NCBI RefSeq assembly: GCF_003992595.1
Contig: NZ_RZNA01000045.1
Coordinates: 40,314 to 104,313 of the forward strand
Direction of reading: 5' to 3'
From: Flagellimonas oceanensis
GTDB lineage: Bacteria > Bacteroidota > Bacteroidia > Flavobacteriales > Flavobacteriaceae
DNA: 64,000 nucleotides
Shown here: positions 50,529 through 55,981 of the stretch, piece after piece
Numbering within the stretch: the first letter of the stretch is position 1
Layout of the letters: each line of letters begins with the position of its first letter
Notes under the pieces: generated by a model
Databases searched by the model: none
What the model was told of the DNA's origin: nothing
The model's input: only the letters and a program-made list of their open reading frames with translations
Position numbers and translations under genes: made by a program

Positions 50529-50568
50529 ATTGGGACGGGGGTAAAACCCTAAAATCGAAAAATTGATA

Positions 50569-50576
50569 TACTTTTG
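50569..50576 (+). promoter_or_regulatory. candidate -7 box of topA
   Basis: TACTTTTG is an exact TANNTTTG, 19 nt before the topA ATG. No TTTG is at the usual -33 distance. Confidence 0.5.
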
Positions 50577-50595
50577 TTATCACAAAACCCAGTGC

Positions 50596-53082
50596 ATGCC
50601 AAAGAATTTAGTTATTGTAGAGTCCCCCGCCAAAGCAAAGACCATTGAACGATTTCTAGGAAAAGAATTTCAAGTAGAGTCAAGTTTTGGGCACATAGCC
50701 GACCTTCCCTCAAAAGAGCTCGGTGTTGATGTGGAGAACGATTTTAAGCCAAAATACACCGTAGATAAGGAGAAGAAGGCCTTGGTAAAAAAACTCAAGG
50801 ACTTGGCAAAGAAAGCAGAGACCATTTGGTTGGCCAGTGATGAGGACCGAGAAGGGGAAGCCATATCCTGGCACTTGGCAGAAGAGTTGGGCTTGGACAA
50901 AAACAAGACCAAACGAATCGTTTTCAACTCCATTACCAAATCGGCCATCCAAAAAGCGATTGAGAACCCAAGGGACATTAACTACAATTTGGTCAATGCA
51001 CAACAGGCACGTAGGGTGTTGGACCGATTGGTGGGCTATGAACTATCACCAGTGCTTTGGAAGAAAATAAAACCGGGACTTTCCGCAGGTAGGGTGCAAT
51101 CCGTAGCAGTGCGCTTGATTGTGGAACGGGAGCGCGAGATTGAAGGATTTACCCCAGAGGCCTCATTTCGTATCAAAGCGGAATTCAAAACAGATGGTGG
51201 CAATGCGTTTGCCGCTAAGCTGAACAAAACATTTCCCACGAAGGACGCAGCAGAGAAATTTCTGAAAGAAAACATTGGGGCGAACTTTTCGGTTTCCGAT
51301 TTGTCCCAAAAGCCAGCAAAGAAATCGCCAGCTGCACCCTTTACCACATCCACATTACAGCAGGAAGCTTCAAGAAAACTTTATTTTTCGGTAAGCCGAA
51401 CCATGCAGGTCGCGCAACGGTTGTACGAAGCAGGTCTCATAACCTATATGAGAACGGATAGCGTCAATCTGTCCAACGAAGCTATTGCAGCGGCAAAAGA
51501 CGCCATTCTGGACAACTATGGCGAAAAGTACAGTCAAACCAGGAACTTTACGGGCAAATCCAAAGGAGCACAAGAAGCTCACGAGGCCATTCGCCCGACC
51601 GATATGAAATTACAGTCGCCCCAACTGGAGCGCGACCAAGCAAAATTATACGAACTGATTTGGAAACGTACCCTTGCTTCGCAGATGAGCGATGCCCAAT
51701 TGGAACGTACCAATGTGAAAATAAAAGCGAGCACCCATAACGAAGAATTCTCTGCAAATGGGGAAGTGGTGAAGTTCGATGGTTTCCTTAAAGTATACCT
51801 GGAGGGAACCGATGATGAAGATGGAGAGGAGCAAGAAGGCATGTTGCCGGCCATGAAAGTGGGAGAGCCGCTTCAAAATGTGTTTATTTCCGCCACAGAA
51901 AGATTCACACGACCACCTTATAGATATTCCGAAGCCTCTTTGGTAAAGAAACTGGAAGAATTGGGAATTGGTAGACCATCCACCTACGCACCGACCATAT
52001 CAACCATCCAAAATAGAGGATATGTGGAAAAAGGTACGGTGGAAGGTTCTGAACGCAAGTACGCGCAATTGGTGCTCGAAGAAAGCAAAGTCTCAGACAA
52101 GCAACTGACGGAGATGGTCGGTTCAGAAAAAGGAAAAATCGTTCCCACGGATATCGGGATGATCGTGAACGACTTTTTGGTGACCCATTTTACCCAAATA
52201 CTGGATTATAATTTCACGGCCCAAGTAGAAGAGGATTTTGATGAGATCGCATCCGGTGAGGAGGATTGGCAAGAAATGATGAAAACTTTCTACAAGGATT
52301 TTCATCCCAATGTGTTGGAGGTCGAGGAGAATGCTGAGCGTGCCAGTGGAGAGCGTGTGTTGGGTACCGACCCAAAATCAGGCAGGCAAGTATCCGTAAG
52401 ATTGGGTCGTTTTGGACCGATGGTACAAATTGGTACGGTGGACGATGAGGAAAAACCTGAGTTCGCCAGTTTGTTGCCCGATCAGTCCATAGGTACCATT
52501 ACATTTGAAGAGGCCATGACGCTTTTTGAACTCCCAAGAAAATTGGGTGTGTACGAAGGTGAGGAAGTGGAGGCCAATGTGGGCCGTTACGGACCCTATG
52601 TCCGATTCGGAAAAAAATTCATATCCCTAGCCAAGGGCGAAAGTGCCTTTGATGTGGATATGGACCGAGCCATAGAGCTGATCATTGAAAAGCAAAAGGC
52701 CGATGCGCCAATTGCGACCTACGAAGGAAAAGACGTTACCAAAGGGAAAGGTAGGTTTGGACCTTTCATCAAATGGGACGGCATGTTCATCAATGTGAAC
52801 AAGAAATACGATTTTGACAATCTATCCGAAGGGGATATTGCTGAATTGATCGAGGCCAAAAAGAAGAAGGAAGCTGAAAAGCTCATTCAAGAATGGCCCG
52901 AAGAAAAAATCAGGATAGAAAAAGCCCGTTGGGGAAGACACAATATCATAAAAGGTAGGGTAAAGGTGGAGCTCTCCAAGGATGTGGATGCCACAAAGAT
53001 CACTTTGGAAGAAGCGCAGGCCCTACTGGAAAAGAAATCACCAAAGAAAAAAGCCAAGACAAAAGCAAAAGCTAAGAAATAG
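50596..53082 (+). CDS. topA: DNA topoisomerase I (type IA)
   Basis: It relaxes negative supercoils. The ATG at 50596 (MPKNLVIVESPAKAKTIERFLG) gives 828 aa. TOPRIM lies at 1-115 with DEDREGEAISWHLAE; the active-site Tyr is in LITYMRTDSVNLS near 295. The C-terminal third has Toprim_Crpt-type repeats (GRFGPMVQIG, GRYGPYVRFGKKF, GRFGPFIKW) instead of Cys4 zinc fingers, none of which are visible, and ends in a very basic tail (KKSPKKKAKTKAKAKK). Confidence 0.97.
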   Translation: MPKNLVIVESPAKAKTIERFLGKEFQVESSFGHIADLPSKELGVDVENDFKPKYTVDKEKKALVKKLKDLAKKAETIWLASDEDREGEAISWHLAEELGLDKNKTKRIVFNSITKSAIQKAIENPRDINYNLVNAQQARRVLDRLVGYELSPVLWKKIKPGLSAGRVQSVAVRLIVEREREIEGFTPEASFRIKAEFKTDGGNAFAAKLNKTFPTKDAAEKFLKENIGANFSVSDLSQKPAKKSPAAPFTTSTLQQEASRKLYFSVSRTMQVAQRLYEAGLITYMRTDSVNLSNEAIAAAKDAILDNYGEKYSQTRNFTGKSKGAQEAHEAIRPTDMKLQSPQLERDQAKLYELIWKRTLASQMSDAQLERTNVKIKASTHNEEFSANGEVVKFDGFLKVYLEGTDDEDGEEQEGMLPAMKVGEPLQNVFISATERFTRPPYRYSEASLVKKLEELGIGRPSTYAPTISTIQNRGYVEKGTVEGSERKYAQLVLEESKVSDKQLTEMVGSEKGKIVPTDIGMIVNDFLVTHFTQILDYNFTAQVEEDFDEIASGEEDWQEMMKTFYKDFHPNVLEVEENAERASGERVLGTDPKSGRQVSVRLGRFGPMVQIGTVDDEEKPEFASLLPDQSIGTITFEEAMTLFELPRKLGVYEGEEVEANVGRYGPYVRFGKKFISLAKGESAFDVDMDRAIELIIEKQKADAPIATYEGKDVTKGKGRFGPFIKWDGMFINVNKKYDFDNLSEGDIAELIEAKKKKEAEKLIQEWPEEKIRIEKARWGRHNIIKGRVKVELSKDVDATKITLEEAQALLEKKSPKKKAKTKAKAKK

Positions 53083-53323: not shown

Positions 53324-54481
53324 ATGGCATTTGATTTTCTGGTTCCGGTCAAGGACAAGGTATTGGCGCATTCCGAATTGTTGCCAGGACAAGCATTGGG
53401 AAAAAACGTCCACATGCACACGGAAAAGGACGGACTTCCGGTATTCGCCCATGCCGATGTTGCCATTTTTGGCGTATTGGAATCCAGAAATGCTTTTGAG
53501 AAAAAACCAGAAAAATTGGATTTGGACGAAGTCCGTATTCAACTGTACCGCTTAATGATGGGCAACTGGAACTCCACCATTATCGATATCGGGGATGTGG
53601 AGGAAGGCGATACCGTTGAGGACACCTATTTTGTGGTAAAGGAAATCGTGGCGGGGTTGCTCGAGGAAAACATCATACCCATAGTATTGGGGCTTACACA
53701 AGATATTACTTTTCCTACCTACCGCGCTTTTGATAAAATAAAGAATATGGTGAATCTGGTCTCCATCGATAGTCGGTTCGACTTTGGTGAGGACGATGAA
53801 CTGATTTCATCACATTCCTATATGAGCAAGATCATCACCGATAAGCCCAACAATCTTTTCAACTTCTCCAATATAGGATACCAGAGTTATTTCAATGCCC
53901 AGGAAGAAAAGGATTTGATGGAGCGTCTTTTTTTCGATGCCTATCGATTGGGCGAGATTGCCGCTAACATAGAATTGGCGGAACCCGTATTGCGCAGCAG
54001 TGATATTGTAAGCTTGGACTTGCGCGCCATCCGTGCCAGCGAAATGGGGATGACCCGAAATTTTTCCCCCAACGGTTTTACGGGCAGGGAGATATGTGCC
54101 ATTGCCCGCTATGCGGGAATTAGCGATAAAGTATCCCTTTTTGGCATCTACGAAGGGGAGAATTCCCATCAGGCTTTTCAGATGATAGCACAGATCATTT
54201 GGTATTTCATAGAGGGCCTGAGCTATAGGATAAAAGAATACCCAAGCTCTAAGAGCGAAGACTTCACAAAGTTTACTGTACCCACGGACACGGAGGAATT
54301 GATCTTCTTTAAAAGCCATGTCACGGAAAGATGGTGGGTGGAAGTACCAACAATTTTAGCTGAACATACTAAAACAAATTCGGTGGCGTTATTACCTTGC
54401 ACCGAAGAGGACTATTTGGATGCTTGCAACCAGAACATTCCCGAAAGGTGGTTCAAAGCCTATAGAAAGGGCTTGAACTAA
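53324..54481 (+). CDS. arginase/formimidoylglutamase-fold protein lacking metal ligands
   Basis: The 385-aa protein keeps the ureohydrolase outline: a GDV strand near residue 90, the IPIVLG strand near 118, LVSIDSRFD near 145, IVSLDLRAIRASE near 228. The three metal-binding motifs are changed: GGxH reads GLTQD (123-127), DAHxD reads DSRFD (149-153) and DxDxxDP reads DLRAIRA. So the usual dimanganese hydrolase chemistry is unlikely. It sits between topA and gldK, 123 nt before gldK, an order I recall from other Flavobacteriaceae where it is annotated formimidoylglutamase. A structural or regulatory role near T9SS is an inference. Confidence 0.82.
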   Translation: MAFDFLVPVKDKVLAHSELLPGQALGKNVHMHTEKDGLPVFAHADVAIFGVLESRNAFEKKPEKLDLDEVRIQLYRLMMGNWNSTIIDIGDVEEGDTVEDTYFVVKEIVAGLLEENIIPIVLGLTQDITFPTYRAFDKIKNMVNLVSIDSRFDFGEDDELISSHSYMSKIITDKPNNLFNFSNIGYQSYFNAQEEKDLMERLFFDAYRLGEIAANIELAEPVLRSSDIVSLDLRAIRASEMGMTRNFSPNGFTGREICAIARYAGISDKVSLFGIYEGENSHQAFQMIAQIIWYFIEGLSYRIKEYPSSKSEDFTKFTVPTDTEELIFFKSHVTERWWVEVPTILAEHTKTNSVALLPCTEEDYLDACNQNIPERWFKAYRKGLN

Positions 54482-54604: not shown

Positions 54605-55981
54605 ATGAGAAAGCTATTCTTTTCATCTCTAGCACTTGTTTTTTTGCTTACCAGTTGTGGCTCTAAATCAAGGTCAAAAGGTGAACTAGTTGGGGTAAAG
54701 GGAAAAAAATGGCATCCAGAAAAACCCTATGGAATGGAACTGATTCCCCAAGGCGCCTTTGTTATGGGTAAAGCCGAAGAGGATCAGGCAAAAGTATTGA
54801 ACGCTCCCACAAGAACGGTTACCGTACGTTCCTTTTATATGGACGATACGGAAATCACCAATAGTGAGTACCGTCAGTTTGTGGAGTGGGTCAAGGATTC
54901 CATTGTAAGGACCAGATTGGCCATTTTGGCCGATGAGTTGGGCATAAGCCCAGAGGATGAGGGTATCGGCGAGTACGCCTTCAAGGATACCGACACCACC
55001 GAACTTTCCGTTTACGATAAGTACATGCTCGACAATTATGCGGGTATGGGAGATAATTATTATGAAGGCAGGGCCTTGAACAAAGATGTTGACCTTGTAT
55101 GGGATACTTCCGAATATCCGGATGAGTACTATGCTGAGGTTATGGACTCCATGTATCTTCCGGAAGAGGAGAGCTACAATGGATTGAGAAGCATCGATGT
55201 CACAAAAATCAAATACAAGTACAGCTGGATGGATATCGAAGCTGCTGCCAGAGCAAGATCGGGCAGTAGAAAGGACTTCATCAAACAAGAGGAACTGGAA
55301 ATTTATCCAGATACCACTGTATGGATTCGAGATTTTGAATACAGCTACAACGAGCCAATGCACAACGATTACTTCTGGCACGACGCCTATAGCGACTATC
55401 CTGTAGTGGGGGTCAACTGGATGCAGGCCAAGGCTTTCTGTAACTGGAGAACTAAATTCAAGAACGACGACCAGAAAAGTCGTGGAAAGCAATTTGTGAA
55501 CCAATTCAGATTGCCGACCGAAGCAGAATGGGAATATGCCGCAAGAGGTGGTATTGAAGGAGGTACATATCCTTGGGGTGGTCCGTATGTGATCAGTGAC
55601 ACTGGGTGTTTTATGGCCAACTTTAAACCACAACGTGGGGACTACGCAGCCGATGCAGCCCTATATACGGTAGAGGCAAAATCCTTTGAGCCCAACGAAT
55701 ACAACTTGTACAACATGGCTGGTAACGTATCTGAATGGACCAACTCCAGCTTTGATCAAGGCGCTTACGAATATCTGTCCACTATGAACCCGAACATCGG
55801 TTCACAGGACAATCAACGTAAGGTTATCCGTGGAGGTTCTTGGAAAGATGTGGCCTACTTCCTTCAGGTAAGTACCAGGGATTACGAATATCAAGATTCC
55901 GCAAGGAGTTACATCGGATTCAGAACCGTTCAAGATTACATGGGCGAGGAAGATGTCAACAGTAGCAGAAGCGGACTATAA
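54605..55981 (+). CDS. gldK: gliding motility / T9SS lipoprotein GldK
   Basis: This 458-aa outer-membrane-associated lipoprotein forms the T9SS periplasmic ring with GldN. The lipoprotein signal ends at Cys18 (LLTSCGSKSRSK). The rest is a sulfatase-modifying-factor (FGE-like) fold: GMELIPQGAFVMGKAEED, MDDTEITNSEYRQFV, VVGVNWMQAKAFCNWR, RLPTEAEWEYAARGG, NMAGNVSEW and VIRGGSWKD. An insertion near 105-210 of acidic/aromatic sequence is typical for GldK. First of gldKLMN. Confidence 0.97.
   Translation: MRKLFFSSLALVFLLTSCGSKSRSKGELVGVKGKKWHPEKPYGMELIPQGAFVMGKAEEDQAKVLNAPTRTVTVRSFYMDDTEITNSEYRQFVEWVKDSIVRTRLAILADELGISPEDEGIGEYAFKDTDTTELSVYDKYMLDNYAGMGDNYYEGRALNKDVDLVWDTSEYPDEYYAEVMDSMYLPEEESYNGLRSIDVTKIKYKYSWMDIEAAARARSGSRKDFIKQEELEIYPDTTVWIRDFEYSYNEPMHNDYFWHDAYSDYPVVGVNWMQAKAFCNWRTKFKNDDQKSRGKQFVNQFRLPTEAEWEYAARGGIEGGTYPWGGPYVISDTGCFMANFKPQRGDYAADAALYTVEAKSFEPNEYNLYNMAGNVSEWTNSSFDQGAYEYLSTMNPNIGSQDNQRKVIRGGSWKDVAYFLQVSTRDYEYQDSARSYIGFRTVQDYMGEEDVNSSRSGL

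Follow-up and report, generated by a model that had tools for sequence, protein, structure and literature searches.

To our knowledge, only a handful of isolated examples of ureohydrolases without a metal site have been described. In metformin hydrolase, the metal-free subunit MetCb activates the active subunit MetCa (PMC11271267). In Trypanosoma brucei, an arginase-like protein is described, in later papers that cite the original work, as having no Mn cluster and an elusive function (Hai et al., 2015, cited in PMC10820115 and PMC11271267). For the Flagellimonas oceanensis protein considered here, the nearest profile match is formimidoylglutamase (HutG; TIGR01227; PDB 3m1r, 4mxr, 1xfk), with which it shares the ureohydrolase fold and the order of the motifs. 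No paper describing it was found in a literature search that reached few subscription papers.

The ureohydrolase fold and its metal site

The gene occupies positions 53324..54481 (+) of the window, by which we mean the whole 64,000-nucleotide stretch of DNA analysed. The frame, placed at the same coordinates in the initial annotation, is open and full length and encodes a pseudo-formimidoylglutamase of 385 residues. The overall ureohydrolase fold recognised at the outset is confirmed by two approaches. The protein matches the Pfam Arginase family (PF00491) at 38.4 bits against a cut-off of 22, and an AF2 model built with 56 sequences (pLDDT 82, pTM 0.86) has the three-layer alpha-beta-alpha arrangement of the superfamily. 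The best 50 Foldseek matches of the model in the PDB are ureohydrolases only (target TM-score about 0.54-0.75), with the metformin hydrolase subunits at the top.

The three metal-binding motifs were first read as GLTQD, DSRFD and DLRAIRA, and aligning the protein by profile with the HutG of its own genome gives the same readings. GGGHD of HutG (GGxH) corresponds to G123-LTQ-D127 at 53690..53704 (+), DAHFD (DAHxD) to D149-SRF-D153 at 53768..53782 (+), and DLDGFSS (DxDxxDP) to D232-LRAIRA at 54017..54037 (+). An alignment artefact is ruled out by this identical mapping. The metal site of the superfamily has six ligands (H, D, H, D, D, D), of which the window protein has three. One is lost from each motif (H101 to Q126, H126 to R151, and D234 to R234), and three Asp ligands persist, D124 as D149, D128 as D153, and D232 under the same number. 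The original statement that all three motifs are lost thus holds in that each is hit, but only one ligand is gone per motif and three Asp are kept. With two or more ligands missing, the protein is predicted to be non-hydrolytic. No signal peptide is evident, and the protein is presumably cytosolic.

The initial annotation had also warned that a formimidoylglutamase label would mislead, and rightly so, since the protein scores 39.4 bits against the TIGR01227 equivalog cut-off of 229.15 and a separate intact HutG is present in the genome. There are three PF00491 proteins in all, including the window protein. One (L003) is the true HutG, intact, at 297 bits and beside hutU; another (L002) is an agmatinase, at 228 bits, next to an arginine decarboxylase-related gene. 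The window protein has no such hut context, its gene adjoining topA and gldK. Databases that name it formimidoylglutamase would invite false calls of histidine degradation.

Conservation among relatives and the C-terminal tail

The window protein is 99% identical to one from Allomuricauda/Flagellimonas, in line with a Flavobacteriaceae genome close to these. Within the order, 115 of 148 genomes contain a relative, and further relatives occur in other families of the class. No more than four of the six ligands are retained in any of the 158 aligned members, and 119 have exactly three. The position of H126 is taken by Lys or Arg in 122 members, D234 is still Asp in only seven, and H101 still His in 22, while D124 and D232 have equivalents in 148 members each. 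Homologues with intact motifs at the locus number 0 of 158. The ligand loss is therefore not a matter of chance or local error, and the view of the protein as a conserved pseudo-enzyme kept at full length is supported. Frames are open and full length in nearly all sampled genomes, and the gene is kept even in genomes of about 1-2 Mb. For two matches (G015:C16:43966-44979 and G154:C2:1016701-1017801), in-frame stop codons (TAG, TGA) are reported within or bordering the matched region, possibly from local decay or assembly error.

In a phylogenetic tree, all the pseudo members form one clade (branch 100/100), apart from the ligand-bearing HutG-like enzymes, and the gene tree broadly follows the families. 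This suggests one ancient ligand loss followed by vertical inheritance. By the tree and the motif counts, an ancestral HutG-like ureohydrolase in the class containing Flavobacteriales would have lost its binuclear Mn site once. The nearby HutG-like proteins L086, L087 and L088, from other families of the phylum, retain five or six ligands, and their sequences stop short of the tail described next.

The lineage carries a new C-terminal mini-domain of 83 residues (residues 303-385; 54230..54478, +), predicted to have four strands and two helices. It is common to all pseudo members, and its signature, FxKS...RWW...C..DY, is aligned in the window protein as F328-x-K330-S331 ... R336-W337-W338 (54305..54337, +) and C359-x3-D363-Y364 (54398..54415, +). 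W293 and W337 are present in 158 of 158 members, C359 in 156 and Y364 in 154. A counterpart of the tail is lacking in 10/10 sampled intact ureohydrolases, and when a tail HMM was run on open frames from the window and the sampled loci, only the pseudo family matched. Searches of the tail against Pfam, PDB sequences and PDB folds gave no match, and no known catalytic motif was found in it. Modelled alone, it reaches a pLDDT of 71, which is modest confidence.

Two families are informative about where selection acts. In family f5, D124, D128 and D232 are replaced by Ser, Ser and Asn. In family f19, most similarity in the N-terminal half is lost, the N-termini are degenerate, and for two members (G180, G292) the match is confined to about residues 183-388. 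The tail signature nevertheless survives, little altered, in both families, which points to selection mainly on the tail and the C-terminal half. Because these parts are conserved even in lineages where the last Asp ligands, or a large part of the N-terminal half, are gone as well, the protein most likely binds a partner protein or ligand by means of the tail and the neighbouring C-terminal half. In the majority of members, the Lys or Arg that replaces a metal-site His beside the retained Asp cluster could substitute for the charge of the metal and stabilise the fold.

Some binding by the old pocket may persist, as equivalents of D124, D128 and D232 are kept in 141-148 of the 158 members. An unlikely reading is that the protein is a neofunctionalised enzyme or ligand sensor, in which the Asp cluster, the Lys or Arg, C359, Y364 and W337-W338 make up a new metal-free site. 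Such a site would account for the invariant, family-specific polar residues (Q187, R208, E220, R224, C359, Y364) and for the retention of D124 and D232. However, families f5 and f19 keep the protein though they have dispensed with the Asp cluster, and the tail offers neither a catalytic motif nor a fold match in favour of catalysis. That the gene is instead a slowly decaying relic without function, as the lost ligands and the degenerate N-termini of f19 might be taken to mean, is barely credible. It is already contradicted by long-term conservation, namely the open frames nearly everywhere sampled, the class-wide invariance of the tail residues, and the persistence of the gene in the genomes of about 1-2 Mb mentioned above.

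Gene order next to gldK and the T9SS

In the window, the gene lies 241 bp downstream of topA (DNA topoisomerase I; 50563..53082, +) and 123 bp upstream of gldK (54605..55981, +), the first gene of gldKLMN, which we treat as context and not as a functional partner. The order in Flavobacteriales is miaB(-)/topA-pseudoenzyme-(porP)-gldKLMN, in which topA is a conserved close upstream neighbour. In three f19 loci (L083, L084, L085), the pseudoenzyme gene is convergent to gldK-murF, an arrangement unlike that of Flavobacteriales; in L084 and L085, porP is upstream of gldK in the convergent cluster.

From the position of the gene, a structural or regulatory role in gliding or the T9SS had been proposed. 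As a T9SS accessory, the protein would regulate or brace the GldL/GldM motor on its cytoplasmic side, a function that the adjacency to gldK would reflect. Consistent with this, in almost every Flavobacteriales family sampled the gene adjoins gldK or porP-gldK, and the convergent f19 loci also bring it beside gldK. However, operon-like spacing is seen with topA only. The median distance to topA is 6 bp, 47 of 69 distances are at most 20 bp, and several of the genes overlap by 4 bp. The start of porP or gldK is never within 20 bp of the pseudoenzyme gene, nor even within 68 bp, the medians being 128 bp for porP and 263 bp for gldK (the latter includes loci with porP in between). A search for a Bacteroidota-type promoter between the pseudoenzyme gene and gldK was not convincing, either for the -7 element (19 against about 9 expected) or for the full pattern (2 against 1.1), and a generic sigma-70 and terminator scan stayed below shuffle expectation. 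In family f5, topA is still nearby in several loci but gldK is not. In families f17, f18, f22 and f23 neither gene is near, and the neighbours vary, with a D-Ala-D-Ala carboxypeptidase, an NAD epimerase and an nqrF-like gene among them. Outside Flavobacteriales, linkage to T9SS genes is lacking in most families of the class. Inherited gene order downstream of topA best accounts for the position beside gldK, which is no sign of a T9SS subunit. In flavobacteria, then, adjacency of a gene to gldK should not be taken as T9SS membership.

The distribution of the gene also separates it from the T9SS. In family f17, it is present in 101 of 101 genomes and SprA in 91. Among the ten genomes without SprA, seven retain GldM and GldL and three (G428, G429, G506) have neither; full loss of the T9SS was judged by these three markers, and only these three genomes qualify. 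All three keep the pseudoenzyme gene at full length with an intact tail. Their proteins have diverged from f17 outgroups no more than those of T9SS-bearing relatives, a comparison made by protein identity only since synonymous sites were saturated in a dN/dS attempt. Conversely, eight genomes of the class (G009, G023, G035, G012, G061, G112, G317, G374) have SprA and lack the pseudoenzyme even by family-profile search. Kept without the T9SS and absent from T9SS-bearing genomes, the gene is thus not bound to the T9SS, nor does the T9SS require it. The proposed role in gliding or secretion accordingly falls away as the main reading, rejected on the evidence of the genomes that keep the gene without SprA, GldM and GldL, and even a lesser accessory role is improbable.

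GldK is a periplasmic lipoprotein. Direct contact of the pseudoenzyme with GldK or GldN is unlikely, because it has no evident signal peptide. In the literature searched, no mutant phenotype in gliding or secretion was found for it. As a separate observation, the seven f17 genomes with GldL and GldM in which SprA went undetected (G149, G427, G444, G454, G471, G478, G484) are near-complete; they have either a motor without a translocon or a very divergent SprA.

Candidate roles and known metal-free ureohydrolases

The protein could be a non-catalytic subunit needed to activate a catalytic ureohydrolase paralogue, as MetCb activates MetCa, a metal-free obligate binder that is a direct precedent (PMC11271267). 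The idea gains from the metformin hydrolase subunits being the top fold matches and from the intact HutG and agmatinase in the genome itself. However, 13 genomes of the order that are at least 95% complete (G001, G008, G011, G015, G017, G024, G027, G036, G043, G045, G053, G069, G084) have a single PF00491 match, with E-values typical of the pseudoenzyme family; its identity with the pseudoenzyme gene is confirmed by location for G015 and G027 and deduced from the score in the others. An active paralogue is thus apparently missing from these 13 genomes, which makes an obligate canonical ureohydrolase partner unlikely. Nor does any of the loci examined pair the gene with an active paralogue, and we consider a subunit of this kind quite improbable. 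Genomes of genus g2 encode another divergent PF00491 protein (about 1e-24) away from the gldK-side gene (G018:C4:54239-55060; G124:C1:4282432-4283250; G143:C15:112440-113285), and in these genomes canonical ureohydrolases score as absent or weak.

The suggestion that the protein was kept for another job stands in so far as it is conserved and full length, though not with T9SS or gliding as the example. Since many relatives keep the gene, including the three without the secretion machine, another job inside the cell is most likely. We lean, with moderate confidence, towards a vertically inherited pseudo-HutG with a new tail, cytosolic and non-hydrolytic, that would act in binding or as an adaptor through the tail and is not a T9SS subunit. 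More tentatively, and with some doubt, the dead core and the W-W/Cys/Tyr tail might together form a new metal-free site, binding or catalytic, that defines a class-wide family serving a widespread process unrelated to the T9SS. The family, ancient and passed on vertically in much of the class, persists in genomes of about 1-2 Mb and has gained a domain of its own, so it probably does something widely useful.

Compared with HutG, the window protein has lost 3/6 ligands, has an extra C-terminal domain and has no hut neighbours. MetCb/MfmB (PDB 8x3g, 8snf; PMC11271267) likewise has a metal-free ureohydrolase fold, with 3-5 of the six ligands mutated in the MetCb clade. However, the MetCb gene lies beside that of its active partner, whereas the pseudoenzyme has no paired active paralogue and is often the sole PF00491 protein. 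The T. brucei protein, as far as its description in the citing papers allows comparison, similarly combines the ureohydrolase fold with the absence of an Mn cluster, but it is a eukaryotic arginase-like protein, while the pseudoenzyme belongs to a bacterial HutG-like clade that has a tail and is class-wide.
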